Shown here: piece after piece, positions 40,730 through 60,645 of the stretch
How the letters are laid out: each line of letters begins with the position of its first letter
Position numbering within the stretch: position 1 is the stretch's first letter
Notes under the pieces: model-generated
What the model was told of the DNA's origin: nothing
The model's input: the letters and a program-made list of their open reading frames with translations, nothing else
Databases searched by the model: none
Assembly: GCF_036669915.1 (NCBI RefSeq)
Contig: NC_089318.1
Coordinates: 12,922,071 to 12,986,070 of the forward strand
DNA: 64,000 bases
Reading direction: 5' to 3'
From: Pocillopora verrucosa
Taxonomy: Eukaryota; Cnidaria; Anthozoa; Scleractinia; Pocilloporidae
Translations under genes and position numbers: made by a program

Positions 40730-40756
40730 TGACGTCATGACGTTCTTTGACGTGGC
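40730..40756 (+). promoter_or_regulatory. CRE/ATF-type site cluster upstream of MINPP1-like gene, unit 1
   Basis: A full palindromic cAMP-response element, TGACGTCA (40,730-40,737), is followed directly by two more TGACGT half-sites (40,738 and 40,749). It lies about 140 bp before the phosphatase start codon and is kept in all three units. Binding by CREB/ATF-family factors is inferred from the motif only. Confidence 0.5.
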
Positions 40757-40876
40757 ATTTTGTGTAGCTCTATCGGCAAGCGTTACATTTCAGCTATGCA
40801 TCAATATCCCTTAACGTTGTTATGGTTTAACCATGCGTACTCGGCCGTGTAAACACAGCCACGAACGTCCCTCAAC

Positions 40877-42295
40877 ATGGCTTTGAAACTGGTTTTATTC
40901 TCTATTATTCAATTATTTTTCTTTCAGTATGCTGGAGGCTCGCAAACGTTTCGCCTTGGAACGAAAACAGCATACCACTTCAACAATTCTGCTTCCTCGA
41001 TAACACACCCCGACCGATGTGAACCTATTCATCTCAACATGGTGATACGCCACGGCTCTCGACTTCCAAGTGATGGCGATATGGAAGAAATTGATGCACT
41101 TTTAACCAAGCTGAACCAAATCTACACAAAAGATTCGCCATTCCGCTACCAAAATCTCACGTTACCATGGATCAAACCACCGCTGTGGAACGACGGTAAT
41201 CCAGGCGAGTTAACAGCCGTTGGTGAAATTGAACAATACAGTATCGCCAAAAGGTTTCGAGCCCGTTTTAACAGAGTCTTCGACAAGAAATACTGGAATA
41301 AATATTACAGTTTTGTGTCTTCAGATAAACCTCGTACGGCTCAAAGCGCCATGGCGTTTGCCCACGGATTATTTGAATCCCAAGGTCCTGTAAGCCCATC
41401 AAAATTTCAACCCGTTGCTGTCATGTTTTCTGGTCGTCAAAACCAGGATAAATTATTGTCTTCTTACAAAACATGTCCTCGGTACGAGATCGACGTTGAC
41501 GAGAATGGCCTTGATGAAGTGGAAAAGTTTTTGAAAGGGCCAGAAGCTAGGAGTGTAACAGAACGACTTGAAAAAAGACTCAAGATAACCGGAAAGATGT
41601 CACTGACGTTTGATCTTGTCGAGAAACTTTTCCGGTTGTGTGCGTTTGGAGTAATGAACCGTAACGACAGCAGCTGGTGTGATTTGTTGGAAGATAATGA
41701 TGTCAAAATAATGGAGTATCAGGGTGATCTGGAAGCGTATTACGAGCACTCATACGGAAACCAGCTAAATCTGAAGATGGAATGCACTCTGCTTTCTGAA
41801 ATCACGAAAAATTTGCGTGACTTCTCCGCAGGTCAAACCGATCTTCGGGGAGTATTTCGATTCACGTCATCAGGCACTTTAGTTGGGTTGTTGACAATTC
41901 TCGGACTTTTCAAAGATTCCATGCCTTTGCGGGCAGACAATTACCTCCAAATGAGAAAGCGACAATTCGTTTTGTCTAACATGGTTCCTATGTCGGGCAA
42001 TATCGCTGTGGTTTTATACGCGTGCAAATCCTCAGGAATGGCGGAAAAACGGGATCACAAAGTGCAGGTGTTGGTGAACGAGGAACCAGTAACTCTGCCA
42101 TGTTGTCATGGAAACGTAATATGTAGTCTTGACGAATTTTTGTCATGTTTTAAGGAGACTGTTGACAGCTGTGATTTGGAAGCCATGTGTTCTCTACCGT
42201 CAACTGATCAACCAAAGGCCATGGCTACTCTTCTTTATCCCCGGCAGATTCTATTATCATTTTTCCTTGTTTTTACTCTTTTTAGTAGATTCTAA
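40877..42295 (+). CDS. MINPP1-like: MINPP1-like histidine phosphatase with degenerate second motif, copy 1
   Basis: An intronless 472-residue protein of the histidine acid phosphatase family, closest in layout to multiple inositol polyphosphate phosphatase. It has a signal peptide (1 to about 21), the nucleophile motif RHGSRLP (58-64), SSDKPRTAQSA (148-158) in place of the family's SSSKxR stretch, and WCDLLEDND and EYQGDLEAYYEHSYG (280-294) as in MINPP proteins. Where MINPP has GHAET (acid/base His and Glu), this protein has TSSGT (330-334), so both residues are missing. A hydrophobic tail (458-469) after a small-residue stretch suggests a GPI anchor. ATG in AACATGG context. It converges with the WSB-like gene. 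Likely a secreted or surface pseudophosphatase, or an enzyme with altered chemistry (inference). Confidence 0.85.
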   Translation: MALKLVLFSIIQLFFFQYAGGSQTFRLGTKTAYHFNNSASSITHPDRCEPIHLNMVIRHGSRLPSDGDMEEIDALLTKLNQIYTKDSPFRYQNLTLPWIKPPLWNDGNPGELTAVGEIEQYSIAKRFRARFNRVFDKKYWNKYYSFVSSDKPRTAQSAMAFAHGLFESQGPVSPSKFQPVAVMFSGRQNQDKLLSSYKTCPRYEIDVDENGLDEVEKFLKGPEARSVTERLEKRLKITGKMSLTFDLVEKLFRLCAFGVMNRNDSSWCDLLEDNDVKIMEYQGDLEAYYEHSYGNQLNLKMECTLLSEITKNLRDFSAGQTDLRGVFRFTSSGTLVGLLTILGLFKDSMPLRADNYLQMRKRQFVLSNMVPMSGNIAVVLYACKSSGMAEKRDHKVQVLVNEEPVTLPCCHGNVICSLDEFLSCFKETVDSCDLEAMCSLPSTDQPKAMATLLYPRQILLSFFLVFTLFSRF

Positions 42296-43771
42296 CAGCC
42301 TCGTCTCCATTCTGCATACAGGGAGAACCATTATGTAAATAAATTATTTGCCAACTCAAAGATCTGCACCAGGCTGTAGCCTGTTTCAGGTACCTAGTCT
42401 GTGAAGAGCAAATTAGCTAACAGTTGCAGTCGTCAAGGCAAACACTTGCATTTGCTGTTTTACATGTGCGTGCTTATGGATCAAGAGCTTGGCACAGGCT
42501 ACCCAAGGAGTTGGGTAACTCTTTAGCTGATCTTGGCCCATGGCTATACTTAGGAAAGAGGACTGAGTTGTTTCTTTTTTGTTTTTTTCTTGTAGGTCTG
42601 TTTACGTTGACCACGACTCTTCTATTTTTCTTGTAGTTTTAGGACTACTTAGGAAACAACTGTCAACTATATGTGAAATTATAGATCCTCTTTTATTCTG
42701 CAAGATTTCCCTAATTCCATAACATTTAAGTGTGCCAGATCATCAACGAAAATTCATAATAAATATACCTTACTACCATTTGAAAAAAGGTTTACTTGAA
42801 AATCTGCATTCGAGGCCAGCAGTAATGCTGCATTGCCAGTTGTTGAGGCAAGGGGGGTGTGGGGGGGTGTGGTCTGGCAGTCTTGTCATAATTCTTTTTA
42901 TGATCTGCCACTGTCATTTTTTTCTAGATGAACTGACAATTCATGCAGTGGAGCTGTATAGCTACAAATCTTAAGTGCAAAGTAATAGCTCTGAGTAATG
43001 TTAAGAACATTTTTTATCTAACTCAGATACAATGAGGGATAAATTGACCTCATTCAAACTTATAAAATAAAATAATTTACAGCATTGATATCAAGAAATT
43101 ACATAGTTTTTTGGTGTTGGAACTAAATGGCTTGAAATTCCACGTGTTCCTATGTTTTGCCTGTTTTTGTTGCAAATCTACCACAACATTTCAAAAATTA
43201 TCAAACATCTGAAGAGAAACAAGACCTCAATTTGAGAAAAAACTCTTTACAGCTGAAAGAAGTTGCCAACGAACAGATTGGAATGTTGACTACATGGAAG
43301 ATTAGTCAAATTTGGTATTATATATTAGAAACATGCTAAATAGTTTTGAGACACTGGTGACAAATACCTAACGTTTTTAAGTTTCAATTTCATATTAGAC
43401 CTATTTTGGAAGATAACAATTAAACTGGTTCTAAATAGTGTGAGAGAGATGGTAAGTTTGAGCTCAGTAAAAAAATAGAGAAAGGTGTTTTTCATCTTGT
43501 GACAAGCGTAGGACAAAGAAAAAATTTTTGAGTCACCACAAGAACCGCAGGCCATGCTCCAATGCTCTACCACTGAGCCACAGAGACTCTATGATGAGTG
43601 AGTGACACCTATTACTAGGTACATATGACACATGTCCTGTGTACTGCTAGGATCAGCAATATCGATAGCATCATGTTTGTGAATAGAATAGGAAAGATGG
43701 TATGGGCCCCCTCACCATAGAGTCTTTGTGTCTTAGTGGTCTCTTTAATGGCTACAATTTGCTTCGGATCT
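42296..43771. other. Convergent intergenic region between phosphatase and WSB-like genes, unit 1
   Basis: It contains the shared 3' ends of the two convergent genes. An AATAAA at about 42,339 suits the phosphatase transcript. A G/T-rich tract (about 42,850-42,872) varies between units. A family-1 SINE lies near the WSB-like 3' end. Short frames here are not domain-bearing. Confidence 0.5.
43448..43594 (-). repeat. tRNA-derived SINE (family 1), unit 1
   Basis: On the minus strand it begins AGAGTCTCTGTGGCTCAGTG (A-box TGGCTCAGTGGTAG) and carries a diverged B-box (GCGGTTCTTGTGGTGAC). The body is TTTTTTCTTTGTCC, GTCACAAGATGAAAAACACC and ends AGCTCAAACTTACCATC. It is the same family as 38,385-38,545. 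About 125 bp away on the plus strand (43,711-43,740) is a second, truncated head (CCATAGAGTCTTTGTG), so the two form an inverted pair. Confidence 0.75.
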
Positions 43772-45115
43772 TCAAGAACATTCATTTACTCTTGTACTAG
43801 CAAGAGGTGAAAATAATAGATAAGCTTTTAAGTTTCTTGGTAAGGGCAGATGTGTCACTTGTGCTGGTGGAACCAACCCATTAATCACTAAACGACATAA
43901 ATGTTGCAGTTCAAATTTTAGAGGCAACTGCCAGATCCGAACTAAGCCATCACTCTGTCCAATGGCCAGTTCATTACAGCTCCTTGCAAAGGCAACAGAA
44001 CATACAATGGTTGTGCTTGACTCATTAGAAACAGAGTCTAGCCTGGCATCAGGTACATGTATTGAACTTATCTCATAAAGAGTCTGTAACAGTTCTGTTT
44101 CAGTTACAATAACTTTTCCTTGTGAAGTACCAAAGGCTAACAAGGCACCATCTGCACTGTATGAAAATGCTGTCAACTTAGTTGAACCTGTCACAATCTT
44201 TGTTTCTGTTACACATTTAGTGTTACCATCTTGAATATACCAGATCTGAAAAACACCATCCTCATAGCAGGCTGCAAGCTTTTGAAATGGAAAACAGGGA
44301 ACAAAAGAACAACTGCAAGCATTTCTTGCAACATCAGTCCTAATGGCAGACAGCAACTCTAAATTTTCACTTTTCAGAACATATAGCTGACTCAAGGAAC
44401 TGGAAAATGCAACAAGGGAGCTGTCTGGTGAAAAGACACAGCTGATCAAGTGACCGGAAAATCCTGGAAAAACAACTTCACAAATGACTCTCCCTGAACT
44501 TTTTAGCTTTTTCTTGGACTTCACCTGCCATAGCCAAATATCATTTGTTTCAGTACCTCTGTGAGATTCTAGCGTAACATTGCTCACTGTCACGGCTTTG
44601 CGGCCGTCCGGAGAAAACACGCAACATAAAGGTCTGGTCAGACGACTTCTATCGCGATATTCACCTTTATCACAGTAAATTATTAACGGTTTTAGAGTAC
44701 AATCGTCTGTGCGCTCAGCCAAAATAATTTGTGCGTGACCTGTGCCTAAAATAATCGACAAAATCTCCCCATTTGGCGAAAAATTGCAAACGGGAGGCGG
44801 TGAGCACGTGAACAGGCTGTTATCATGGGTTTCCTCGAGGCTATCGAGGTCCCAACATTGAACATATCCTGCTCGAAAATGTCTCAAATCATGGCCACCA
44901 AACGTTGTAAGTGACAGCAAACTTGTATCGTCGTTCGGAGAAAAGGCACAGGCTGTTACCTTCAATGGGTCTGAATGCTTTAGTTCCGTCAAGATGGTAA
45001 AGGGTGGAGGAATTGGTTCGCCTTTCAAATGAAATGACCGGTAAGTTGTCGTGCAAAGAGCCAGTTCTGTTCCGTGAATATCTGATTGGTTTGGTTTTGA
45101 TGAATCCAAACCCAT
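43772..45115 (-). CDS. WSB1-like: WD40-repeat protein with C-terminal SOCS box (WSB1/WSB2-like), copy 1
   Basis: An intronless 447-residue protein. About seven WD-type blades can be traced by their VxACAFSP-like openings (VTACAFSPNDD, VCNFSPNGE, CCVFSPDGRK, SCVFSPDSS, CSCSFVP, AFSYSADG, CSVAFARS) and closing VQCWD, IWLWQ, FQIWY and VRIWQ. Residues 403-435 form a SOCS box: LQHLCRLVI (elongin BC-box) and THLPLPRNLKAYL, as at the end of vertebrate WSB1/2. These proteins are substrate receptors of cullin-RING ubiquitin ligases; that role is inferred. An in-frame TAG upstream with no ATG between fixes the start at 45,115. It runs towards the phosphatase gene. Confidence 0.8.
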   Translation of the reverse strand: MGLDSSKPNQSDIHGTELALCTTTYRSFHLKGEPIPPPFTILTELKHSDPLKVTACAFSPNDDTSLLSLTTFGGHDLRHFRAGYVQCWDLDSLEETHDNSLFTCSPPPVCNFSPNGEILSIILGTGHAQIILAERTDDCTLKPLIIYCDKGEYRDRSRLTRPLCCVFSPDGRKAVTVSNVTLESHRGTETNDIWLWQVKSKKKLKSSGRVICEVVFPGFSGHLISCVFSPDSSLVAFSSSLSQLYVLKSENLELLSAIRTDVARNACSCSFVPCFPFQKLAACYEDGVFQIWYIQDGNTKCVTETKIVTGSTKLTAFSYSADGALLAFGTSQGKVIVTETELLQTLYEISSIHVPDARLDSVSNESSTTIVCSVAFARSCNELAIGQSDGLVRIWQLPLKFELQHLCRLVINGLVPPAQVTHLPLPRNLKAYLLFSPLASTRVNECS

Positions 45116-46857
45116 GCCTAAACTTATTCCTAAATCATACAGTTCGCCCTAAGCGACACTTTTCAGGTAAGAAGTTGAAGAACGGCATGAAGTGTTAAAT
45201 CTTCACGAGTTCACAAAGGCGTACATAGAGCGTTCTCCATCTTTGTTTGTATTTTGGTACCCAAGCCTCCCGCTTTTTGGGATGAGCGGTTGCAATGCCA
45301 TGCTATAGGCGATTCACCTTAGCGGTTCCCATGCGGGGAAACCCACGGTAACCCTGAAAATTGGCAAGGGAGATGACACACTGTAGGTTGATCTAGGATG
45401 AGCGGAAGATCTGAGTATCGGGGCAACAAATAACATAATAATATTAAGTAATTAGAAATTGTTATAAGACACCAATCCTATTAAAGAACAGCGAGTTTGC
45501 AGCATTGGAAAATGGCAAAAAATATATCGCTCGATTACAGTTAACGCAAATATAATTCAACTTTTGGGCAAAGTGTCTCCAAGCCCATGGCAAGAAGTTC
45601 CATTCTTCCCGTTTGCGTTAACGTCATTCTTAGCCTCTGATAATCCAACAGCCAAACAGTACCAGAGAAAAAAAGATTTATTGTAACATGTATACATGAT
45701 AATAGTTTTCGGTTCTCTACCTTTGGAGTTTACTAATATTTCTAATATTACACCATACTATCAACACACGCTGGCCTCTTCTCTAGTCTTTATCACACGG
45801 CCTAAAAAACACATGGTTCGTAATTAAACACGTATCTCGATTATGCAATAAATTCATTTGATTATCCAACCTTTGTGTTAAATACAATTCTTTACTGGCC
45901 GATTTCACAATATTCTTTTCAATTTTATACCTGCACTTCTATTAACCATCGATAACTTTTGTATAACTTGTCTTTTCTTAATTCAATCCAAATTTACAAT
46001 ATTAAGCGAGCAACAATGTCTTACTCTGGTAATCACTTCATTCTTCCTCTTAATTACTGTCCTCTTTACAAATAAATATTCCATGCATGGTCAGCTATCT
46101 TTGTTTTAGCCGTTTTAGCAGCATTATTACATACAAATTTCTTGAGCTTACAAGTTAAACTTAACACATTGTGTTGGCTTTGCTTTCTGACAAGAACGAA
46201 ATACAACATAGTATGAAAAAATAAATAAAATAGCATTGGTCATAAATCTTTGATGTCAGGCATTTTGATCAATTCTTACATCCCAGCGTTATTTATTACA
46301 ATAAATTATGCGTTTAAGTTCTGCATGAACTCAAAATGAACTCTATTTACATTTTTTTCGGTTTGTTCGCATGTGCCATGCCCGCGAAACCTCAATAACA
46401 CGCAAACTCTGAACGTGAAAACCAAACTTTCTTTTTTTCTACCGTAGACCTTTATTGTATAAACAAATGAAAAACAAGACCAAAAGGAATCGGAAAAAAG
46501 CAATATGAATCGATAACTACTGCAATACAGACACACGAGCTTAACGTTTTGAACTCTCAGAATATCAAACCTGCTCTTCTGGGTTGTCTGTAACATGCTT
46601 GGAAGAAGGATAAAGTGCAATTCGAATAATTTTTGTTGAGATGTGTAATGAGCATGTCGTTGAAGACGCAGTAAAGTAAAACTACATTTGAAGAAATTCA
46701 AGCGATTCGGCATATGTTACTACTCGTCTGCTCTCTTAACAAAGGCCCTCCAGAAATGCTCTGTAGACTATTCGATAAATACCGATACCAAAGTCAAAAC
46801 TCCTTCCCAAGTGTAACAAAGCCTACCACCTCTATCGATCACAACCCATTATTCTAA
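45116..46857. other. Region between WSB-like 5' end and orphan exon, unit 1
   Basis: It holds the WSB-like promoter side and what is probably the 3' UTR of the minus-strand orphan exon. Frames here (for example 46,306-46,713 minus) are low-complexity and lack domains. No other gene is seen. Confidence 0.5.
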
Positions 46858-47178
46858 TCAAAGGTAAGTATCAAGCCATTCTTTGGACCGCTTTACGTCA
46901 CAGGCGCTTGTGCTTGCCCCAAGAAAACGCTCTGCTCCCAAGGATCCTTGGGAAAGATCATCGACTGAGCACACACTACTAGTCTCCATATCTTTGACTG
47001 TCACGGATAAGTTTCGGAGATCTGGTGCCGAAGAACTTTTCGCAAGATCTCTTTGGCCCATGCTTTCCGCGTCGCTCAAGAAGGAGAGGTCGAGCAGTTC
47101 TCGGTCAATTTGAACTCTCAGAGCATGTAGAGAGGCGATATCGTCACGGCACTCCACAGAAATTACCTCATCACAGGG
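46858..47178 (-). CDS. Orphan 3'-terminal exon of an unidentified gene, unit 1
   Basis: After a strong acceptor on the minus strand (TTCTTTCCTCTTAG), the frame starts PCDEVISVECRDD and runs 106 codons to a stop at 46,858, without an ATG at its front. It is rich in Ser/Asp/Leu, with a possible helix (LHALRVQIDRELLDLSFL) and Ser-rich phrases (SSSAPDLRNLS, ETSSVCSVDDLS). A phase-compatible upstream exon may end at 47,449 before GTGAGA. The duplicated segment stops at 47,595, so the rest of the gene is not present beside this copy. It is probably a fragment; the family is not recognised. Confidence 0.5.
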   Translation of the reverse strand, partial: PCDEVISVECRDDIASLHALRVQIDRELLDLSFLSDAESMGQRDLAKSSSAPDLRNLSVTVKDMETSSVCSVDDLSQGSLGAERFLGASTSACDVKRSKEWLDTYL

Positions 47179-47595
47179 CTAAGAGGAAAGAATGAGATGA
47201 ATATTTAAGAAATGGTCAAATTTCAAGTGCAGGAGATGCATTCACAAAAAAGGCCATCGTATGGTGGCTTATGACGAATGTTAGTGTGTTTCTGGCGATT
47301 TTCGCCTAAAAGTAATCGTCCTATCTATTTAAAAAATAGATTCAATTTCACCGGACGTCTTTTCACTTTGAAGTGAAAGCTGCCGCTAAAATTTGGTAAG
47401 AACAAAAAAGCGGCACACGCGCCATGGGCAAGTCACTCAAGTTCTCACCACATTTTGGCGACACGTGTGATCCGTTATATGATGCATGATAAAGTAATTT
47501 GATTGGTTTTCGCATGACAGCGGAGCTATCAAGGTCCTGCCTTGTGTCATCCGTCTCACTCTTCCACTCCTTAACTGATTCCCGTTATCATTCCA

Positions 47596-47665
47596 CGCCA
47601 GGCCTTCAAATTCGGCGCTACGATGCTCTCTCCCACAGCTTAGGAGAACTCTCTGATGCACCAGG
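47596..47665 (-). repeat. Truncated SINE head at the unit 1/unit 2 junction
   Basis: Only the tRNA-like head of the family-1 SINE remains (GTGGGAGAGAGCATCG on the minus strand). Its B-box and body, intact beside unit 1, are replaced at this junction by the end of unit 1. It therefore marks the duplication breakpoint. Confidence 0.75.
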
Positions 47666-48802
47666 TAAGGCTTTTCTTAGTGCATATGTGTGAGTCGGTC
47701 CGTATCACGGTTTCGAGCGGGTAAATCGAAGAGGAAAGATTTCAAATTTTTAGATCGATAATGAAATAAAGGAAAACGTTCTCGTCTTGCTGCGAGCATG
47801 TGACAAAGAAAAAAATACGTGTAAGAAACGTGCCGTCACGTCTCATGGATCATCTATTGCCGTTTCCCACAAGCAAAATCCAAATGATTAACTCTTGATG
47901 TTACTAAATAAAGAATTACCCGGACAAGATAAGCAAAACAAAGGTTGCAAAACATCTGTTGGTCTTCGTCGTAAAACAAATAATGTAAACATTTGCCATT
48001 TAGCGAGGTGAGAGCACGCGAAAATGTCAAGAGAAATAAACGACCAAAACAATAGTATTTTATTTTTGTTCTAAATTAATTTGACCTGGAGCAGTTCGTG
48101 AGGCAGCATTTCGGATGACTCTAACTGTTGTGGAGTTCAGGGTAGCCTTTTTCTAATTCCGTTTGTTCAGTGGAACGTGCTCATCGAAAAATTTACGTTC
48201 GTAAACTTTTTTCCGCAATCGGTAATTAGTGGACCTCTCCGTAGGAAGTCAGTCGATTAATTTCCGCGTTAGATTGTTTTTCTGTTATTGAACGGAGTCT
48301 TCTAAATAAGAAAAAAATCCAAAATCCGTCGATCTGGGATTTTTCTGCAAAGCAAAGCTTACAATTTCAAAATGCGAAAATTGACGAAAGGGAAATACAT
48401 TTTTCTATTTTGATGTAATTTGCGACAACGACCACGAAAATGCAGACATATTTTTTTTTCAACGAATGCAGATAATACAGATGCAATTACCTAACATCAG
48501 TTAAGATTTACACAAACTTTCCAGTAAATCCTCGATCCTTTTGACTCCTTCTTTTGCGATGAAACTCTGAAAGTTACCCTGAAATGAAGGTATATCAACG
48601 AAACACTTCATACTTACGAGTATTGCTTGTTTATCTCGTATGACAGCCTTCATGATGAGTTACGTGGCCTCAGGTTTAGTTTTCGCGTTAGTCAATGTAT
48701 TCAGTTTGAAAGTTTACTTAAAGCTGCTGCCGCTGACACGACCAAATGCTTCCACAGACCTCCCCCGCAATCGTTAACATAAGAAAGTTGTTAACCAGTT
48801 TC

Positions 48803-49181
48803 CTGGTTGGCTCAGATAGTAGAGCACCGGACCCACTGCCGTGCGGGAGGTCGAGTGTTTAAGCTCCAGACCAGAACAAAATTGAGCGTCTTAGAATAGT
48901 TGAGGAGAATGTGCTAGCTATTGCTGTGACCTCTGCAAATGGTTAGACATGCTGGTCTTCTCAGAAAAGGAAAATAAACCGTTGAGTTTGATTGTTGCTC
49001 TCGGTGTTGTACTGTGGACTTGATTCCGAAATTGGGAACGTCTGCAAAAATGTCTTTCAAAATTGTAAACTGATCAATGCAGTCTGGCTAAAGTTCCCCG
49101 CAAAGTGTTGTAAAGTGTTATGAGCTAATGGATATGGCGCTATCGAAATCGTCAATTAATTATTATTGTCATCATCATTAT
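48803..49181 (+). repeat. tRNA-derived SINE (family 2), unit 2
   Basis: Near-identical copy of the element at 39,691-40,070, carried along by the duplication: same A-box head, decayed B-box and ATT-rich tail. Confidence 0.75.
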
Positions 49182-49878
49182 AGTTCTGCCTGTCTAGATT
49201 CCTTTAAACCAGTCACCTTCGGGGAATTGTCATTCATAATCCCCAGTCAAATGAACTATGATGAAATCACACTTTTACCCTCCAATCTTTAGATATTCTA
49301 GGTATATTTTGAAGATTTTAAGGGCAGGCAGCATATGGTTGGCCGAGTGACTGGGAAAAAAATGTTTCGTTTACTTAAGACAGGTATATCTATTTTTCGG
49401 AAGAGAGTTCCATGAAAAAATAATAAACAGATAAATAAATTAATCAATGAACGAATAAATAGATAGATGAAAATAATTGAATACTCAAACAATTTATTTA
49501 AAAAGACAAAGAATTCAGTTCAAGGCTGCTTCAAAATTAATACAATGTTTTGGATCATAGTGCTGTTTGTTTTTACTTCTCACGTATGGAAAAACATAAG
49601 CAAACACGAAGGGAAACGGAAGCGAAACTTTTACTTATAGTTTATTGTCATCAATTTTAATGAGCTCGTTTTCGTTCATCGTGATGTTTTCTTTTTCGTC
49701 AAACCATAATTTACCACGAACACGGCTTAATGTATTCTTATTTTTCTAAATATAATTTTATCCTCAGCAGAAGTTCGCTTTTCTTTAGGAGTCTAGTTGT
49801 CACTATCAGCGATGGGCTCCCAGTATGAGCATCACAATCTAGGGAAAGGCGAAGGAAATCTCAGTTGCCCATAAACAA

Positions 49879-49905
49879 TGACGTCATGACGTTCTTTGAC
49901 GTGAC
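49879..49905 (+). promoter_or_regulatory. CRE/ATF-type site cluster, unit 2
   Basis: TGACGTCA at 49,879-49,886 followed by two TGACGT half-sites, about 150 bp upstream of the second phosphatase start. Confidence 0.5.
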
Positions 49906-50033
49906 ATTTTTGCATTTTGTGTAGCTCTATCGGCAAGCGTTACATTTCAGCTATGCATCAATATCCCTTAACGTTGTTATGGTTTAACCATGCGTACTCG
50001 GCCGTGTAAACACAGCCACGAACGTCCCTCAAC

Positions 50034-51452
50034 ATGGCTTTGAAACTGGTTTTATTCTCTATTATTCAATTATTTTTCTTTCAGTATGCTGGAGGCTCGC
50101 AAACGTTTCGCCTTGGAACGAAAACAGCATACCACTTCAACAATTCTGCTTCCTCGATAACACACCCCGACCGATGTGAACCTATTCATCTCAACATGGT
50201 GATACGCCACGGCTCTCGACTTCCAAGTGATGGCGATATGGAAGAAATTGATGCACTTTTAACCAAGCTGAACCAAATCTACACAAAAGATTCGCCATTC
50301 CGCTACCAAAATCTCACGTTACCATGGATCAAACCACCGCTGTGGAACGACGGTAATCCAGGCGAGTTAACAGCCGTTGGTGAAATTGAACAATACAGTA
50401 TCGCCAAAAGGTTTCGAGCCCGTTTTAACAGAGTCTTCGACAAGAAATACTGGAATAAATATTACAGTTTTGTGTCTTCAGATAAACCTCGCACGACTCA
50501 AAGCGCCATGGCGTTTGCCCACGGATTATTTGAATCCCAAGGTCCTGTAAGCCCATCAAAATTTCAACCCGTTGCTGTCATGTTTTCTGGTCGTCAAAAC
50601 CAGGATAAATTATTGTCTTCTTACAAAACATGTCCTCGGTACGAGATCGACGTTGACGAGAATGGCCTTGATGAAGTGGAAAAGTTTTTGAAAGGGCCAG
50701 AAGCTAGGAGTGTAACAGAACGACTTGAAAAAAGACTCAAGATAACCGGAAAGATGTCACTGACGTTTGATCTTGTCGAGAAACTTTTCCGGTTGTGTGC
50801 GTTTGGAGTAATGAACCGTAACGACAGCAGCTGGTGTGATTTGTTGGAAGATAATGATGTCAAAATAATGGAGTATCAGGGTGATCTGGAAGCGTATTAC
50901 GAGCACTCATACGGAAACCAGCTAAATCTGAAGATGGAATGCACTCTGCTTTCTGAAATCACGAAAAATTTGCGTGACTTCTCCGCAGGTCAAACCGATC
51001 TTCGGGGAGTATTTCGATTCACGTCATCAGGCACTTTAGTTGGGTTGTTGACAATTCTCGGACTTTTCAAAGATTCCATGCCTTTGCGGGCAGACAATTA
51101 CCTCCAAATGAGAAAGCGACAATTCGTTTTGTCTAACATGGTTCCTATGTCGGGCAATGTCGCTGTGGTTTTATACGCGTGCAAATCCTCAGGAATGGCG
51201 GAAAAACGGGATCACAAAGTGCAGGTGTTGGTGAACGAGGAACCAGTAACTCTGCCATGTTGTCATGAAAACGTAATATGTAGTCTTGACGAATTTTTGT
51301 CATGTTTTAAGGAGACTGTTGACAGCTGTGATTTGGAAGCCATGTGTTCTCTACCGTCAACTGATCAACCAAAGGCCATGGCTACTTTACTTTATCCCCG
51401 GCAGATCCTATTATCATTTTTCCTTGTTTTTACTCTTTTTAGTAGATTCTAA
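50034..51452 (+). CDS. MINPP1-like: MINPP1-like histidine phosphatase with degenerate second motif, copy 2
   Basis: An intronless 472-residue copy, differing from copy 1 at three residues only: A155T, I376V and G412E. The signal peptide, RHGSRLP (58-64) and the hydrophobic C-terminus are unchanged. The TSSGT substitution for the MINPP acid/base motif (330-334) is also present, so loss of the motif predates the array's expansion. A155T lies in the stretch aligned with the family's second phosphate-contact region. The frame is fully open and looks expressed rather than decayed. Confidence 0.85.
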   Translation: MALKLVLFSIIQLFFFQYAGGSQTFRLGTKTAYHFNNSASSITHPDRCEPIHLNMVIRHGSRLPSDGDMEEIDALLTKLNQIYTKDSPFRYQNLTLPWIKPPLWNDGNPGELTAVGEIEQYSIAKRFRARFNRVFDKKYWNKYYSFVSSDKPRTTQSAMAFAHGLFESQGPVSPSKFQPVAVMFSGRQNQDKLLSSYKTCPRYEIDVDENGLDEVEKFLKGPEARSVTERLEKRLKITGKMSLTFDLVEKLFRLCAFGVMNRNDSSWCDLLEDNDVKIMEYQGDLEAYYEHSYGNQLNLKMECTLLSEITKNLRDFSAGQTDLRGVFRFTSSGTLVGLLTILGLFKDSMPLRADNYLQMRKRQFVLSNMVPMSGNVAVVLYACKSSGMAEKRDHKVQVLVNEEPVTLPCCHENVICSLDEFLSCFKETVDSCDLEAMCSLPSTDQPKAMATLLYPRQILLSFFLVFTLFSRF

Positions 51453-52947
51453 CAGCCTCGTCTCCATTCTGCATACAGGGAGAACCATTATGTAAATAAA
51501 TTATTTGCCAACTCAAAGATCTGCACCAGGCTGTAGCCTGTTTCAGGTACCTAGTCTGTGAAGAGCAAATTAGCTAGCAGTTGCAGTCGTCAAGGCAAAC
51601 ACTTGCATTTGCTGTTTTACATTTGCGTGCTTGTGGATCAAGAGCTTGGCACAGGCTACCCAAGGAGTTGGGTAACCCTTTAGCTAATCTTGGCCCATGG
51701 CCATACTTATGAAAGAGGACTGAGTTGTTTCTTTTATGTTTTTTTCTTGTAGGTATGTTTACGTTGACCACGACTCTTCTATTTTTCTTGTAGTTTTAGG
51801 ACTACTTAGGAAGCAACTGTCAACTATATGTGAAAAAGTATAGATCCTCTTTTATTCTGCAAGATTTCCCTAATTCCATAACATTTAAGTGTGCCAGATC
51901 ATCAACGAAAATTCATAATAAATATACCTTACTATCATTTGAAAAAATGTTTACTTGAAAATCTGCATTCAAGGCCAGCAGTAATGCTGCATTGCCAGTT
52001 GTTGAGGCAGGGCAAGGGGGGGGGGGGGGAGAGTGTGTGTGTGTGTGGTCTGGCAGTCTTGTCATAATTCTTTTTATGATCTGCCACTGTCATTTTTTTC
52101 TACATGAACTGACACTTCATGCAGTGGAGCTGTATAGCTACAAATCTTAAGTGCAAAGTAATAGCTCTGAGTAATGTTAAGAACATTTTTTATCTAACTC
52201 AGATACAATGAGGGATAAATTGACCTCATTCAAACTTATAAAATAAAATAATTTACAGCATTGATATCAAGAAATTACATAGTTTTTTGGTGTTGGAACT
52301 AAATGGCTTGAAATTCCACGTGTTCCTATGTTTTGCCTGTTTTTGTTGCAAATCTACCACAACATTTCAAAAATTATCAAACATCTGAAGAGAAACAAGA
52401 CCTCAATTTGAGAAAAAACTCTTTACAGCTGAAAGAAGTTGCCAACGAACAGATTGGAATGTTGACTACATGGAAGATTAGTCAAATTTGGTATTATATA
52501 TTAGAAACAAGCTAAATAGTTTTGAGACAATGGTGACAAATACCTAATGTTTTTAAGATTCAATTTCCTATTAGACCTATTTTGGAAGATAACAATTAAA
52601 CTGGTTCTAAATAGTATGAGAGAGATGGTAAGTTTGAGCTCAGTAAAAAAATAGAGGAAGATGTTTTTCATCTTGTGACAAGTGCAGGATAAAGAAAAAA
52701 TTTTTGAGTCACCACAAGAACCTCAGGCCATGCTCCAATGCTTTACCACTGAGCCACAGAGACTCTATGGTGAGTGAGCGACACCTATTATGAGGTACAT
52801 ATGACACACGTCCTGTGTACTGCTAGGATCAGCAATATCGATAGCATCATGTTTGTGAATAGAATAGGAAAGATGGTATGGGCCCCCTCACCATAGAGTC
52901 TCTGTGTCTTAGTGGTCTCTTTAATGGCTACAATTTGCTTCGGATCT
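51453..52947. other. Convergent intergenic region, unit 2
   Basis: Equivalent of 42,296-43,771. It differs by an expanded G-run plus GT microsatellite (52,015-52,045) and scattered substitutions. It contains the family-1 SINE at 52,624-52,770. Confidence 0.5.
52624..52770 (-). repeat. tRNA-derived SINE (family 1), unit 2
   Basis: Counterpart of 43,448-43,594 with a few substitutions, including one in the A-box region (TGGTAAAGCATT for TGGTAGAGCATT). Confidence 0.75.
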
Positions 52948-54321
52948 TCAAGAACATTCATTTACTCTTGTACTAGCAAGAGGTGAAAATAATAGATAAG
53001 CTTTTAAGTTTCTTGGTAAGGGCAGATGTGTCACTTGTGCTGGTGGAACCAACCCATTAATCACTAAACGACATAAATGTTGCAGTTCAAATTTTAGAGG
53101 CAACTGCCAGATCCGAACTAAGCCATCACTCTGTCCAATGGCCAGTTCATTACAGCTCCTTGCAAAGGCAACAGAACACACAATGGTTGTGCTTGACTCA
53201 TTAGAAACAGAGTCTAGCCTGGCATCAGGTACATGTATTGAACTTATCTCATAAAGAGTCTGTAACAGTTCTGTTTCAGTTACAATAACTTTTCCTTGTG
53301 AAGTACCAAAGGCTAATAAGGCACCATCTGCACTGTATGAAAATGCTGTCAACTTAGTTGAACCTGTCACAATCTTTGTTTCTGTTACACATTTAGTGTT
53401 AGCATCTTGAATATACCAGATCTGAAAAACACCATCCTCATAGCAGGCTGCAAGCTTTTGAAATGGAAAACAGGGAACAAAAGAACAACTGCAAGCATTT
53501 CTTGCAACATCAGTCCTAATGGCAGACAGCAACTCTAAATTTTCACTTTTCAGAACATATAGCTGACTCAAGGAACTGGAAAATGCAACAAGGGAGCTGT
53601 CTGGTGAAAAGACACAGCTGATCAAGTGACCGGAAAATCCTGGAAAAACAACTTCACAACTGACTCTCCATGAACTTTTTAGCTTTTTCTTGGACTTCAC
53701 TTGCCATAGGCAAATTTCATTTGTTTCAGTACCTCTGTGAGATTCTAGCGTAACATTGCTCACTGTCACGGCTTTGCGGCCGTCCGGAGAAAACACGCAA
53801 CATAAAGCTCTGGACAGAAGACTTCTATCGCCATATCCACCTGTATCACAGTCAATTGTGAACGGTTCTAGAGTACAATCGTCTGTGTGCTCAGCCAAAA
53901 TAATTTGTCCGTGACCTGTGTTTAAAATAAACGACAAAATCTCCCCATTTGGCGAAAAATTGCAAACGGGACGCGGTGAGTACGTGAACAGGCTGTTATC
54001 ATGGGTTTCCTCGAGGCTATCGAGGTCCCAACATTGAACAAATCCTGCTCGAAAATGTCTCAAATCAAGGCCAGCAAATGTTGTAAGTGACAGCAAACTT
54101 GTATCGTCGTTCGGAGAAAAGGCACAGGCTGTTACCTTCATCATTTGATCAGTTCCTAATGGGCCTGAATGCTTTAGTTCCTTCAAGACGGTAAAGGGTG
54201 GAGGAATTGGTTCGCCTTTCAAATGAAATGACCGGTAAGTTGTCGTGCAAAGAGCCAGTTGTGTTCCGTGAATATCTGATTGGTTTGGTTTTGATGAATC
54301 CAAACCCATGCCTAAACTCAT
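52948..54321 (-). CDS. WSB1-like: WD40-repeat protein with C-terminal SOCS box (WSB1/WSB2-like), copy 2, divergent N-half
   Basis: An intronless frame of 457 residues. An ATA-to-ATG change four codons upstream of the start used in copies 1 and 3 adds MSLG, and six extra residues (GTDQMM) follow KHSGPL. About 20 substitutions are crowded into roughly residues 40-240 (for example GLDLRHFRAGF, SFILNTGHGQ, DTGGYGDRSLL, SSWRVSCEV). The C-terminal half, including the SOCS box, is virtually identical to the other copies. The blades and BC-box remain intact, so it is probably functional with a diverged substrate-facing half (inference). The downstream ATG is still available. Confidence 0.8.
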   Translation of the reverse strand: MSLGMGLDSSKPNQSDIHGTQLALCTTTYRSFHLKGEPIPPPFTVLKELKHSGPLGTDQMMKVTACAFSPNDDTSLLSLTTFAGLDLRHFRAGFVQCWDLDSLEETHDNSLFTYSPRPVCNFSPNGEILSFILNTGHGQIILAEHTDDCTLEPFTIDCDTGGYGDRSLLSRALCCVFSPDGRKAVTVSNVTLESHRGTETNEICLWQVKSKKKLKSSWRVSCEVVFPGFSGHLISCVFSPDSSLVAFSSSLSQLYVLKSENLELLSAIRTDVARNACSCSFVPCFPFQKLAACYEDGVFQIWYIQDANTKCVTETKIVTGSTKLTAFSYSADGALLAFGTSQGKVIVTETELLQTLYEISSIHVPDARLDSVSNESSTTIVCSVAFARSCNELAIGQSDGLVRIWQLPLKFELQHLCRLVINGLVPPAQVTHLPLPRNLKAYLLFSPLASTRVNECS

Positions 54322-56046
54322 TCCTAAATCATACAGTTCGCCCTAAGCGACACTTTTCAGCTAAGAAGTTGAAGAACGGTATGAAGTGTTAAATCTTCAC
54401 GAGTTCACAAAGGCGTACATAGAGCGTTCTCCATCTTTGTTTGTATTTTGGTACCCAAGCCTCCCGCTTTTTGGGATGAGCGGTTGCAATGCCATGCCAT
54501 AGGCGATTCATCTTAGCGGTTCCCATGCGGGGAAACCCACGGTAACCCTGAAAATTGGCAAGGGAGATGACACACTGTAGGTTGATCTAGGATGAGGGGA
54601 AAATCTGAGTATCGGGGCAACAAATAACATAATAATATTAAGTAATTAGAAATTGTTACAAGACACCAATCCTGTTAAAGAACAGCGAGTTTGAAGCATT
54701 GGAAATTGGCAAAAAATATATCGCTCGATTACAGTTAACGCAAATATAATTCAACTTTTGGGCAAAGTGTCTCCAAGCCCATGGCAAGAAGTTCCATTCT
54801 TCCCGTTTGCGTTAACGTCATTCTTAGCCTCTGATAATCCAACAGCCAAACAGTACCAGAGAAAAAAAGGTTTATTGTAACATGTATACATGATAATAGT
54901 TTTCGGTTCTCTACCTTTGGAGTTTACTAATATTTCTAATATTACACCATACTATCAACACACGCTGGCCTCTTCTCTAGTCTTTATCACACGGCCTAAA
55001 AAACACATGGTTCGTAATTAAACACGTATCTCGATTATGCAATAAATTCATTTGATTATCCAACCTTTGTGTTAAATACAATTCTTTACTGGCCGATTTC
55101 ACAATATTCTTTTCAATTTTATACCTGCACTTCTATTAACCATCGATAACTTTTGTATAACTTGTCTTTTCTTAATTCAATCCAAATTTACAATATTAAG
55201 CGAGCAACAATGTCTTACTCTGGTAATCACTTCATTCTTCCTCTTAATTACTGTCCTCTTTACAAATAAATATTCCATGCATGGTCAGCTATCTTTGTTT
55301 TAGCCGTTTTAGCAGCATTATTACATACAAATTTCTTGAGCTTACAAGTTAAACTTAACACATTGTGTTGGCTTTGCTTTCTGACAAGAACGAAATACAA
55401 CATAGTATGAAAAAATAAATAAAATAACATTGGTCATAAATCTTTGATGTCAGGCATTTTGATCAATTCTTACATCCCAGCGTTATTTATTACAATAAAT
55501 TATGCGTTTAAGCATGAACTCAAAATGAACTCTATTTACATTTTTTTCGGTTTGTTCGCATGTGCCATGCCCGCGAAACCTCAATAACACGCAAACTCTG
55601 AACGTGAAAACCAAACTTTCTTTTTTTCTACCGTAGACCTTTATTGTATAAACAAATGAAAAACAAGACCAAAAGGAATCGGAAAAAAGCAATATGAATC
55701 GATAACTACTGCAATACAGACACACGAGCTTAACGTTTTGAACTCTCAGAATATCAAACCTGCTCTTCTGGGTTGTCTGTAACATGCTTGGAAGAAGGAT
55801 AAAGTGCAATTCGAATAATTTTTGTTGAGATGTGTAATGAGCATGTCGTTGAAGACGCAGTAAAGTAAAACTACATTTGAAGAAATTCAAGCGATTCGGC
55901 ATATGTTACTACTCGTCTGCTCTCTTAACAAAGGCCCTCCAGAAATGCTCTGTAGACTATTCGATAAATACCGATACCAAAGTCAAAACTCCTTCCCAAG
56001 TGTAACAAAGCCTACCACCTCTATCGATCACAACCCATTATTCTAA
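54322..56046. other. Region between WSB-like 5' end and orphan exon, unit 2
   Basis: Near-identical to 45,116-46,857; no additional gene is seen. Confidence 0.5.
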
Positions 56047-56367
56047 TCAAAGGTAAGTATCAAGCCATTCTTTGGACCGCTTTACGTCACAGGCGCTTGT
56101 GCTTGCCCCAAGAAAACGCTCTGCTCCCAAGGATCCTTGGGAAAGATCATCGACTGAGCACACACTACTAGTCTCCATATCTTTGACTGTCACGGATAAG
56201 TTTCGGAGATCTGGTGCCGAAGAACTTTTCGCAAGATCTCTTTGGCCCATGCTTTCCGCGTCGCTCAAGAAGGAGAGGTCGAGCAGTTCTCGGTCAATTT
56301 GAACTCTCAGAGCATGTAGAGAGGCGATATCGTCACGGCACTCCACAGAAATTACCTCATCACAGGG
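56047..56367 (-). CDS. Orphan 3'-terminal exon of an unidentified gene, unit 2
   Basis: Its coding sequence is identical to 46,858-47,178, with the same acceptor and stop. Here too the duplicated segment ends about 420 bp further on, at 56,784, and unit 3 follows, so the 5' exons of this gene are again absent. Its perfect preservation reflects how recent the array is and does not show selection. Confidence 0.5.
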   Translation of the reverse strand, partial: PCDEVISVECRDDIASLHALRVQIDRELLDLSFLSDAESMGQRDLAKSSSAPDLRNLSVTVKDMETSSVCSVDDLSQGSLGAERFLGASTSACDVKRSKEWLDTYL

Positions 56368-56784
56368 CTAAGAGGAAAGAATGAGATGAATATTTAAGAA
56401 ATGGTCAAATTTCAAGTGCAGGAGATGCATTCACAAAAAAGGCCATCGTATGGTGGCTTATGACGAATGTTAGTGTGTTTCTGGCGATTTTCGCCTAAAA
56501 GTAATCGTCCTATCTATTTAAAAAATAGATTCAATTTCACCGGACGTCTTTTCACTTTGAAGTGAAAGCTGCCGCTAAAATTTGGTAAGAACAAAAAAGC
56601 GGCACACGCGCCATGGGCAAGTCACTCAAGTTCTCACCACATTTTGGCGACACGTGTGATCCGTTATATGATGCATGATAAAGTAATTTGATTGGTTTTC
56701 GCATGACAGCGGAGCTATCAAGGTCCTGCCTTGTGTCATCCGTCTCACTCTTCCACTCCTTAACTGATTCCCGTTATCATTCCA

Positions 56785-56854
56785 CGCCAGGCCTTCAAAT
56801 TCGGCGCTACGATGCTCTCTCCCACAGCTTAGGAGAACTCTCTGATGCACCAGG
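56785..56854 (-). repeat. Truncated SINE head at the unit 2/unit 3 junction
   Basis: Same structure as 47,596-47,665: the SINE's tRNA-like head is kept, and its body is replaced by the end of the preceding unit. Confidence 0.75.
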
Positions 56855-57991
56855 TAAGGCTTTTCTTAGTGCATATGTGTGAGTCGGTCCGTATCACGGT
56901 TTCGAGCGGGTAAATCGAAGAGGAAAGATTTCAAATTTTTAGATCGATAATGAAATAAAGGAAAACGTTCTCGTCTTGCTGCGAGCATGTGACAAAGAAA
57001 AAAATACGTGTAAGAAACGTGCCGTCACGTCTCATGGATCATCTATTGCCGTTTCCCACAAGCAAAATCCAAATGATTAACTCTTGATGTTACTAAATAA
57101 AGAATTACCCGGACAAGATAAGCAAAACAAAGGTTGCAAAACATCTGTTGGTCTTCGTCGTAAAACAAATAATGTAAACATTTGCCATTTAGCGAGGTGA
57201 GAGCACGCGAAAATGTCAAGAGAAATAAACGACCAAAACAATAGTATTTTATTTTTGTTCTAAATTAATTTGACCTGGAGCAGTTCGTGAGGCAGCATTT
57301 CGGATGACTCTAACTGTTGTGGAGTTCAGGGTAGCCTTTTTCTAATTCCGTTTGTTCAGTGGAACGTGCTCATCGAAAAATTTACGTTCGTAAACTTTTT
57401 TCCGCAATCGGTAATTAGTGGACCTCTCCGTTGGAAGTCAGTCGATTAATTTCCGCGTTAGATTGTTTTTCTGTTATTGAACGGAGTCTTCTAAATAAGA
57501 AAAAAATCCAAAATCCGTCGATCTGGGATTTTTCTGCAAAACAAAGCTTACAATTTCAAAATGCGAAAATTGACGAAAGGGAAATACATTTTTCTATTTT
57601 GATGTAATTTGCGACAACGACCACGAAAATGCAGACATATTTTTTTTTCAACGAATGCAGATAATACAGATGCAATTACCTAACATCAGTTAAGATTTAC
57701 ACAAACTTTCCAGTAAATCCTCGATCCTTTTGACTCCTTCTTTTGCGATGAAACTCTGAAAGTTACCCTGAAATGAAGGTATATCAACGAAACACTTCAT
57801 ACTTACGAGTATTGCTTGTTTATCTCGTATGACAGCCTTCATGATGAGTTACGTGGCCTCAGGTTTAGTTTTCGCGTTAGTCAATGTATTCAGTTTGAAA
57901 GTTTACTTAAAGCTGCTGCCGCTGACACGACCAAATGCTTCCACAGACCTCCCCCGCAATCGTTAACATAAGAAAGTTGTTAACCAGTTTC

Positions 57992-58370
57992 CTGGTTGGC
58001 TCAGATAGTAGAGCACCGGACCCACTGCCGTGCGGGAGGTCGAGTGTTTAAGCTCCAGACCAGAACAAAATTGAGCGTCTTAGAATAGTTGAGGAGAATG
58101 TGCTAGCTATTGCTGTGACCTCTGCAAATGGTTAGACATGCTGGTCTTCTCAGAAAAGGAAAATAAACCGTTGAGTTTGATTGTTGCTCTCGGTGTTGTA
58201 CTGTGGACTTGATTCCGAAATTGGGAACGTCTGCAAAAATGTCTTTCAAAATTGTAAACTGATCAATGCAGTCTGGCTAAAGTTCCCCGCAAAGTGTTGT
58301 AAAGTGTTATGAGCTAATGGATATGGCGCTATCGAAATCGTCAATTAATTATTATTGTCATCATCATTAT
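57992..58370 (+). repeat. tRNA-derived SINE (family 2), unit 3
   Basis: Third copy of the element at 39,691-40,070, essentially identical to the unit 2 copy. Confidence 0.75.
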
Positions 58371-59065
58371 AGTTCTGCCTGTCTAGATTCCTTTAAACCA
58401 GTCACCTTCGGGGAATTGTCATTCATAATCCCCAGTCAAATGAACTATGATGAAATCACACTTTTACCCTCCAATCTTTAGATATTCTAGGTATATTTTG
58501 AAGATTTTAAGGGCAGGCAGCATATGGTTGGCCGAGTGACTGGGAAAAAAATGTTTCGTTTACTTAAGACAGGTATATCTATTTTTCGGAAGAGAGTTCC
58601 ATGAAAAAATAATAAACAGATAAATAAATTAATCAATGAACGAATAAATAGATAGATGAAAATAATTGAATACTCAAACAATTAATTTAAAAGACAAAGA
58701 ATTCAGTTCAAGGCTGCTTCAAAATTAATTCAATGTTTTGGATCATAGTGCTGTTTGTTTTTACTTCTCACGTATGGAAAAACATAAGCAACACGAAGGG
58801 AAACGGAAGCGAAACTTTTACTTATAGTTTATTGTCATCAATTTTAATGAGCTCGTTTTCGTTCATCGTGATGTTTTCTTTTTCGTCAAACCATAATTTA
58901 CCACGAACACGGCTTAATGTATTCTTATTTTTCTAAATATAATTTTATCCTCAGCAGAAGTTCGCTTTTCTTTAGGAGTCTAGTTGTCACTATCAGCGAT
59001 GGGCTCCCAGTATGAGCATCACAATCTAGGGAAAGGCGAAGGAAATCTCAGTTGCCCATAAACAA

Positions 59066-59092
59066 TGACGTCATGACGTTCTTTGACGTGAC
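59066..59092 (+). promoter_or_regulatory. CRE/ATF-type site cluster, unit 3
   Basis: TGACGTCA at 59,066-59,073 followed by two TGACGT half-sites, about 155 bp before the third phosphatase start. The sequence between this cluster and the start codon is altered in this unit (CCCCTAAACATGACG at about 59,152), which adds one more TGACG. Confidence 0.5.
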
Positions 59093-59226
59093 ATTTTTGC
59101 ATTTTGTGTAGCTCTATCGGCAAGCGTTACATTTCAGCTATGCATCAATATCCCCTAAACATGACGTTGTTATGGTTTAAGCATGCACACTCGGCCGTGT
59201 AAACACAGCCACGAACGTCCCTCAAC

Positions 59227-60645
59227 ATGGCTTTGAAACTGGTTTTATTCTCTATTATTCGATTGTTTTTCTTTCAGTATGCTGGAGGCTCGCAAACGTT
59301 TCGCCTTGGAACGAAAACAGCATACCACTTCAACAATTCTGCTTCCTCGATAACACACCCCGACCTATGTGAACCTATTCATCTCAACATGGTGATACGC
59401 CACGGCTCTCGACTTCCAAGTGATGGCGATATGGAAGAAATTGATGCACTTTTAACCAAGCTGAACCAAATCTACACAAAAGATTCGCCATTCCGCTACC
59501 AAAATCTCACGTTACCATGGATCAAACCACCGCTGTGGAACGACGGTAATCCAGGCGAATTAACAGCCGTTGGTGAAATTGAACAATACAGTATCGCCAA
59601 AAGGTTTCGAGCCCGTTTTAACAGAGTCTTCGACAAGAAATACTGGAATAAATATTACAGTTTTGTGTCTTCAGATAAACCTCGTACGGCTCAAAGCGCC
59701 ATGGCGTTTGCCCACGGATTATTTGAATCCCAAGGTCCTGTAAGCCCATCAAAATTTCAACCCGTTGCTGTCATGTTTTCTGGTCGTCAAAACCAGGATA
59801 AATTATTGTCTTCTTACAAAACATGTCCTCGGTACGAGATCGACGTTGACGAGAATGGCCTTGATGAAGTGGAAAAGTTTTTGAAAGGGCCAGAAGCTAG
59901 GAGTGTAATAGAACGACTTGAAAAAAGACTCAAGATAACCGGAAAGATGTCACTGACGTTTGATCTTGTCGAGAAACTTTTCCGGTTGTGTGCGTTTGGA
60001 GTAATGAACCGTAACGACAGCAGCTGGTGTGATTTGTTGGAAGATAATGATGTCAAAATAATGGAGTATCAGGGTGATCTGGAAGCGTATTACGAGCACT
60101 CATACGGAAACCAGCTAAATCTGAAGATGGAATGCACTCTGCTTTCTGAAATCACGAAAAATTTGCGTGACTTCTCCGCAGGTCAAACCGATCTTCGGGG
60201 AGTATTTCGATTCACGTCATCAGGCACTTTAGTTGGGTTGTTGACAATTCTCGGACTTTTCAAAGATTCCATGCCTTTGCGGGCAGACAATTACCTCCAA
60301 ATGAGAAAGCGGCAATTCGTTTTGTCTAACATGGTTCCCATGTCGGGCAATATCGCTGTGGTTTTATACGCGTGCAAATCCTCAGGAATGGCGGAAAAAC
60401 GGGATCACAAAGTGCAGGTGTTGGTGAACGAGGAACCAGTAACTCTGCCATGTTGTCATGGAAACGTAATATGTAGTCTTGACGAATTTTTGTCATGTTT
60501 TAAGGAGACTGTTGACAGCTGTGATTTGGAAGCCATGTGTTCTCTACCGTCAACTGATCAACCAAAGGCCATGGCTACTCTTCTTTATCCCCGGCAGATT
60601 CTATTATCATTTTTCCTTGTTTTTACTCTTTTTATTAGATTATAA
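59227..60645 (+). CDS. MINPP1-like: MINPP1-like histidine phosphatase with degenerate second motif, copy 3
   Basis: An intronless 472-residue copy differing from copy 1 by Q12R (signal peptide), R47L, T228I, S470I and F472L. RHGSRLP (58-64) and the TSSGT replacement of the MINPP acid/base motif (330-334) are the same as in copies 1 and 2. The hydrophobic tail still looks like a GPI signal. The promoter-proximal region differs from the other units, so expression could differ. Confidence 0.85.
   Translation: MALKLVLFSIIRLFFFQYAGGSQTFRLGTKTAYHFNNSASSITHPDLCEPIHLNMVIRHGSRLPSDGDMEEIDALLTKLNQIYTKDSPFRYQNLTLPWIKPPLWNDGNPGELTAVGEIEQYSIAKRFRARFNRVFDKKYWNKYYSFVSSDKPRTAQSAMAFAHGLFESQGPVSPSKFQPVAVMFSGRQNQDKLLSSYKTCPRYEIDVDENGLDEVEKFLKGPEARSVIERLEKRLKITGKMSLTFDLVEKLFRLCAFGVMNRNDSSWCDLLEDNDVKIMEYQGDLEAYYEHSYGNQLNLKMECTLLSEITKNLRDFSAGQTDLRGVFRFTSSGTLVGLLTILGLFKDSMPLRADNYLQMRKRQFVLSNMVPMSGNIAVVLYACKSSGMAEKRDHKVQVLVNEEPVTLPCCHGNVICSLDEFLSCFKETVDSCDLEAMCSLPSTDQPKAMATLLYPRQILLSFFLVFTLFIRL

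Follow-up and report, generated by a model that had tools for sequence, protein, structure and literature searches.

Tandemly arrayed MINPP-like proteins of Pocillopora verrucosa have Ser-Ser-Gly in place of the His-Ala-Glu catalytic triplet

Results

A recent tandem array of MINPP-like genes

The window analyzed here, a 64,000-nucleotide stretch of the Pocillopora verrucosa genome (GCF_036669915.1, contig NC_089318.1, positions 12,922,071 to 12,986,070 of the forward strand), carries three plus-strand genes for proteins that resemble multiple inositol polyphosphate phosphatases (MINPPs), at positions 40877..42295, 50034..51452, and 59227..60645 (copies 1 to 3). All three keep the nucleophile motif of these enzymes but have Ser-Ser-Gly (SSG) in place of the His-Ala-Glu (HAE) triplet. 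A previous sequence-only reading had proposed that this DNA holds a triplicated, retained pseudophosphatase. The open frames that it described are present: each copy is a single frame of 472 residues counted from the methionine, with no internal stop in any of the three.

The copies lie in a tandem array (38482..64000) with units of ~9.1-9.2 kb starting near positions 38482, 47595, and 56784, the third being truncated by the window end at 64000. Over 1416 bases there are 7 differences between copies 1 and 2, 9 between copies 1 and 3, and 16 between copies 2 and 3 (98.9-99.5% identity). In the same order, synonymous divergence (dS) is 0.010, 0.013, and 0.023 and nonsynonymous divergence (dN) 0.0036, 0.0045, and 0.0082, giving dN/dS of ~0.35-0.37. 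Judged by these values, the triplication is a single very recent tandem array; it stands as a count of three copies, but not as three independent retentions. Because the copies are so similar and the array so recent, the three open frames say little about retention.

On the minus strand of unit 1, an open frame at 43772..45148 matches WD40 and SOCS-box families in a Pfam scan that covered this unit, and the list of open reading frames contains frames resembling it in units 2 and 3 (52948-54342 and 62122-63498, minus strand). This WD40/SOCS-box gene was amplified together with the MINPP-like gene, with 4 differences in 1377 bases between its copies 1 and 3.

Unit 3 combines stretches resembling each of the other two units: its first 1.5 kb is 99.6-100% identical to unit 2, and the stretch corresponding to 42430-45393 is 99.4-100% identical to unit 1. 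Such a mosaic is what one would expect from gene conversion, from unequal crossing-over, or from assembly. The number of copies could thus partly be an assembly effect, with haplotypes or repeats placed end to end, and it would fit such an origin that part of the adjacent contig sequence reads N, leaving the array end outside the readable sequence. We regard this as improbable, as mosaics also arise by the two biological routes; it would in any case concern copy number and not the motif, which is the same in 3/3 copies, so that the finding is independent of how many copies there are. Past the window end, the readable part of the contig (L095) shows no additional sequence matching the array unit. 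Open frames with EGF repeats adjoin the array there, on the minus strand.

The proteins belong with the MINPPs but differ from them in defining features

All three copies match the Pfam family His_Phos_2 (PF00328) with E values of 1.6e-46 to 3.3e-46 (158.8-159.8 bits against a curated cut-off of 23.6). The solved structures closest to copy 1 in a phmmer search, and those closest to a profile of copy 1 and two paralogues from the same genome (described below), carry the name multiple inositol polyphosphate phosphatase and include 4fdt and 4fdu; 4FDU is described as the Bacteroides enzyme (PMC9181005). The profile matched BtMINPP (4fdt) with an E value of 1.1e-20 over profile positions 31-391, and an hhalign comparison of the three window copies alone with 18 bacterial MINPPs gave a probability of 99.4 over 390 columns. 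On the evidence of their defining features, the window proteins are members of histidine phosphatase branch 2. An NCBIfam scan gave no match for the three proteins tried, and scans of viral contigs with the window protein and A1 as queries found no relative.

Among the MINPP motifs as defined in two reports (PMC7762957, PMC9432691), the GxLTx2G hinge is present in the window copies as GELTAVG, with neither paralogue fitting it, and the window sequences PMSGN and LVNE resemble, without being identical to, PMAAN and LYNE. The window copies end in LFSRF or LFIRL, which are not KDEL-like. Hence, in comparison with MINPP1 and the MINPPs (BtMINPP, 4fdt and 4fdu; BlMINPP), they share similarity over the full length, RHGxR, the third arginine, and the GELTAVG hinge, but differ in having SSG for HAE, a glycine for the family proline, and a hydrophobic C-terminus with no KDEL-like end. 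We take 6rxd-6rxg to be the structure entries of BlMINPP. Because the body is that of a MINPP while both the HAE triplet and the KDEL-like end are missing, we call the proteins MINPP-like and not MINPP enzymes, and we infer from the alignments that their fold is intact.

Serine and glycine occupy the positions of the catalytic histidine and acid

A degenerate RHG-S/T-R pattern has only three matches in the window (41048, 50205, and 59398), whereas 100 shuffled sequences gave 0.19 on average. These are the nucleophile motifs of the three genes, at 41048..41062 on the plus strand in copy 1 and at 50205-50219 and 59398-59412 in copies 2 and 3; each reads RHGSRLP, as the sequence-only reading had it. 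The second motif region reads FRFTSSGT in 3/3 copies, with SSG at 41867..41875, 51024..51032, and 60217..60225 (plus strand) and identical codons for TSSGT (ACG TCA TCA GGC ACT). SSG falls on HAE with no gap nearby both in the phmmer alignment of copy 1 to BtMINPP and in the hhalign alignment of the window copies to the 18 bacterial MINPPs, and adding the two paralogues to the latter again places it there without gaps. The agreement of phmmer with two hhalign alignments rules out a misaligned motif site, and bears out the earlier statements that the site is unambiguous and that the His/Glu pair is replaced by Ser and Gly.

To place these changes in the wider family, bacterial and archaeal genomes were scanned with a stretch of BtMINPP, using six patterns. 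The scan gave 98 stretches encoding a relative, of which 80 were kept and 71 aligned. L018, L022, and L073 offered no fitting open frame, and a further six (L032, L033, L034, L037, L055, and L061) were excluded manually because their frames were wrong, fused, or incomplete, although L061 contained RHGSR and L055 contained HAE, the latter lacking RHGxR. A wider alignment of 74 rows comprises the 71 bacterial MINPPs, a single window copy, and both paralogues; a smaller one (A2) has 47 rows, comprising the three window copies, the two paralogues, and 42 bacterial sequences of less than 75% mutual identity. RHGSR is not unusual in itself, being the reading in 60 of the 74 rows.

The second motif is HAE in 57 of the 71 bacterial MINPPs, HES in 4, HAQ in 4, and HDV, HET, HDT, HDG, HDS, and HDD in 1 each, the HAE share being inflated because one of the six scan patterns was FAHAETVI. 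The histidine is present in 71/71, and 67/71 have an acid in the second or third position of the motif. The four HAQ sequences, all gammaproteobacterial (L064, L066, L074, and L087), group together in a single branch of the tree described below (84/87). This group resembles the inactive BlMINPP E401Q mutant and may represent a second, bacterial acid-less lineage.

In the window protein, His331 is replaced by Ser, the acid at 333 by Gly, and the family proline after the motif (337) by Gly. The phosphate-binding set of Arg58, His59, Arg62, and Arg153 is intact, and R58, H59, G60, R62, and R153 are invariant across the 47 rows of A2; the codon of the third catalytic arginine, R153, lies at 41333..41335 (plus strand) in copy 1, as computed from the residue number. 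Among the 44 non-window rows of A2, 23 columns are at least 93% conserved; 17 of these are retained in the window copy (Y33, R58, H59, G60, R62, G116, R153, S157, N375, and E402 among them) and 6 are broken. The identification as a MINPP-type protein with the rest of the phosphate-binding core kept thus holds. Three of the broken columns are broken by the window alone among the genes of its own genome: S331 (His in 44/44), G337 (Pro in 42/44), and G374 (Ala in 41/44). The remaining three (47, 82, and 377) also deviate in one or both paralogues. By the same measure, paralogue L005 breaks 7/26 columns and L001 10/27, the motif histidine never being among them. The window gene is therefore not a generally decayed member of the family, and its distinctive changes lie at and near the second catalytic motif.

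The acid is also missing from a divergent paralogue

A search of the same 353-Mb genome gave 13 matches with the family and 6 with the protein; the search proceeded exon by exon, and these counts are lower bounds. Besides the window copies, two further MINPP-type genes were found, L001 on contig 7 and L005 on contig 8, each a single open frame. L001 has RHGTRYP, HSE, and a C-terminal HGEL. Eukaryotic MINPP1 is reported to end in a KDEL-like sequence (PMC12580751), and the combination of HSE with the KDEL-like HGEL makes L001 likely to be a working enzyme of the endoplasmic reticulum (ER). L005 has RHGSRYP and HTG, so the acid is lost and the histidine and proline are kept. It is 41-44% identical to the window copies and, like them, has RHGSR and a single open frame but no acid; it differs in keeping the motif histidine and proline and in having no hydrophobic tail. 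The acid is missing in 4/5 of the MINPP-type genes found, that is, four acid-less genes to one with HSE among those found. Ten of the 12 window cysteines are common to both paralogues.

Other branch 2 genes in this genome keep His-Asp (GHDS in a contig 9 gene and SVHDT in a contig 1 gene); the second motif was not located in two PPIP5K-like matches on contig 1 or in a match on contig 12. Two exon sets, L096 and L097 (RHGDRTPKQKMKM), lie ~23 kb apart on the same contig; they are presumably PPIP5K-like, perhaps a duplicated PPIP5K. In L099, a repeat with 93-base spacing (~3100-4900) stands next to an acid-phosphatase-like exon, and its translated frames contain a recurring peptide.

A tree of the 42 bacterial rows and the paralogues, with one window copy standing for all three and the motif columns removed, places the three genes of this genome in one clade (100/100) and within it joins the window gene to L005 (97/85). 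This topology favors, without proving, one shared loss of the acid (Glu) before the window/L005 split, with the histidine lost later in the window lineage.

The window and L005 lineages have been long constrained

Between the window gene and L005, amino acid identity is 41.5% over 451 codons, 13 of 69 comparable fourfold-degenerate sites are identical, and dS is beyond estimation. Since ~41% of residues are still shared when synonymous sites are saturated, both lineages have long been under protein-level constraint since their split, a span that may include time before each lost the acid. The chance of random codons keeping 470 positions open is ~1.6e-10. Within the array, the MINPP-like frames have a lower proportion of variable sites (16/1416) than the rest of the unit (92/4373; p 0.017), the latter being gap-free array columns outside the WD40 frame, where other genes are possible.

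These data bear on the alternative that the gene is on its way out, its acid having been lost by drift and its copies amplified by chance with the neighboring WD40/SOCS-box gene. The youth of the array (dS 0.010-0.023), the presence of another gene in its unit, the dN/dS of ~0.35-0.37 among copies, and a nonsignificant test of replacement against silent changes (below) would all suit such a history. Against it, the acid-less state is common to the deeply diverged L005, with synonymous sites saturated between the two; the open frames are 480 and 528 codons long; and the shared cysteines (10/12) and the phosphate-binding set are kept. On balance we find this alternative unlikely. The retention half of the earlier proposal of a retained pseudophosphatase is thus borne out by the comparison with L005; catalytic death is likely rather than certain, given the precedents of AppA-HAT and ScVip1 discussed below.

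Hydrophobic termini suggest a secreted, possibly tethered protein

All three gene types have an N-terminal hydrophobic stretch by hydropathy. The 12-residue mean hydropathy at the C-terminus is 2.8 in 3/3 window copies, compared with 0.53 in L005 and 0.48 in L001, and in copy 1 the hydrophobic tail comprises the last 21 residues (42230..42292, plus strand), resembling a glycosylphosphatidylinositol (GPI) signal by composition alone. The signal peptide and GPI-like tail of the sequence-only reading are accordingly present as hydrophobic stretches and putative as signals. The window copies also have three glycosylation sequons. Secretion with a lipid anchor is plausible from these features; GPI anchoring and a receptor role are putative.

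Discussion

A predicted inositol-phosphate binder with little or no turnover

In branch 2 enzymes, a histidine is described as attacking the phosphate, with an acid required to release product and phosphate (PMC7762957). As the window proteins have neither the active-site histidine of the second motif nor the general acid, their turnover would be very slow or nil, and we consider them likely to be catalytically inactive; this is likely rather than shown because some relatives without the normal acid or histidine still turn over. Acid-less AppA-HAT is reported to have a Km of 32 versus 161 µM and a kcat of 10.5 versus 10,209 per s, so that kcat falls to ~0.1% and Km is lowered 5-fold (PMC9181005), whereas BlMINPP E401Q is described as inactive, with a crystal structure of the phosphohistidine form (PMC7762957). 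Both resemble the window copies in keeping the nucleophile and arginines without the general acid; they differ in being engineered and in keeping the histidine that is serine here. The phosphatase domain of the PPIP5K ScVip1, likewise of branch 2 and without the canonical histidine (Lys990), handles inositol phosphates but is described as an active inositol pyrophosphatase with a GAF insertion and a glutamate kept at the neighboring position. The pseudophosphatases STYX and MK-STYX are described as having catalytic motif residues replaced in a phosphatase fold, as in the window copies, but belong to the dual-specificity (tyrosine phosphatase) family.

We therefore favor, with a probability of about one half, a secreted and probably surface-tethered protein of the MINPP fold that would bind inositol phosphates or another polyphosphate with little or no turnover. 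Such a protein, MINPP-like over its length, would hold its ligand through the kept RHGSR (nucleophile His59, with Arg58 and Arg62) and the third arginine (Arg153), and the replacement of His331, of the acid at 333, and of the following proline would leave it with slow or trapped phosphohistidine chemistry, as the acid-less AppA and BlMINPP mutants suggest. The order of losses would be that favored by the tree, the acid before the split from the HTG paralogue and the histidine afterward, with selection having kept the gene, as is apparent for the two lineages since their split and weakly within the array. From their C-termini, the window protein would be tethered at the surface by its GPI-like tail and the HSE paralogue retained in the ER. 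Candidate roles are those of a sink, a sensor, or a partner of an active enzyme.

The main alternative, which we think possible though clearly less probable, is an enzyme with changed chemistry, either directed at substrates whose leaving groups are good (acyl or anhydride phosphates, inositol pyrophosphates) or reliant on water or a migrated residue for the acid. ScVip1 offers a precedent, as it is reported to be active with Lys at the histidine position, and mutation of its donor-position Glu to Ala is reported to make it faster, accepting 1-InsP7 (an inositol pyrophosphate) but not inositol hexakisphosphate (InsP6) (PMC11836120); the residual turnover of AppA-HAT points the same way, and the inactivity described for BlMINPP E401Q the other. 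The nucleophile and arginine set kept in the window copies would serve such an enzyme, but the copies have lost both the histidine and the acid, plus the conserved proline. Moreover, inositol pyrophosphates are intracellular messengers, so that secretion would be unexpected for an enzyme acting on them.

Several observations weigh against the binding-protein reading. The clade of window gene and L005, on which the order of losses depends, is not secure: an approximately unbiased (AU) test rejects neither L005 with L001 (p 0.177) nor the window gene with L001 (p 0.065), the outgroup branch has a length of 2.55, and the program that built the tree flagged long branches, together with an unusual sequence composition in all three rows from this genome. 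Changes in the array, counted site by site with the two in Leu codon 452 taken as one replacement and one silent, number 9 replacement and 7 silent, which does not differ significantly from neutrality (p 0.089), so the array alone is weak evidence for selection. An acid may also have migrated to the donor site from elsewhere, and activity, binding, and expression of the window proteins are all predicted.

More tentatively, the window gene and L005 could belong to an ancient lineage of animal proteins, secreted and of the MINPP fold, that lost the general acid and then, in one branch, the active-site histidine, and that might act outside the cell as receptors or sinks for inositol phosphates, perhaps through a long-lived phosphohistidine. 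MINPP1 is reported to be responsible for InsP6 and inositol pentakisphosphate (InsP5) metabolism in mammalian cells (PMC10296752). A MINPP lineage kept without its acid, in a genome that also has a canonical MINPP, would offer a natural system in which to ask how binding without turnover could be useful extracellularly, and would parallel in nature the acid-less phytase mutants. In open-licence literature (titles and the beginnings of abstracts, among the matches listed), we found no description of a MINPP pseudoenzyme, which does not prove its absence. A survey of Drosophila enzymes makes no mention of Mipp, and the word "minpp" in a coral-larva paper is the name of a program option.

Other features of the window

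Upstream of the array, a second, less similar tandem duplication spans 1-9638 and 12737-21898, with pieces 89-95% identical and ~12.3-12.9 kb apart. Each copy has two short open frames, at 5456-5836 and 8158-8673 in the first and at 17800-18171 and 20436-20951 in the second; a Pfam scan of all but 17800-18171 gave no match. A 669-codon open frame on the minus strand (26117-28123), whose only Pfam match is far below the cut-off, lies where GC content over 2 kb is highest in the window and by eye seems to have several hydrophobic segments.

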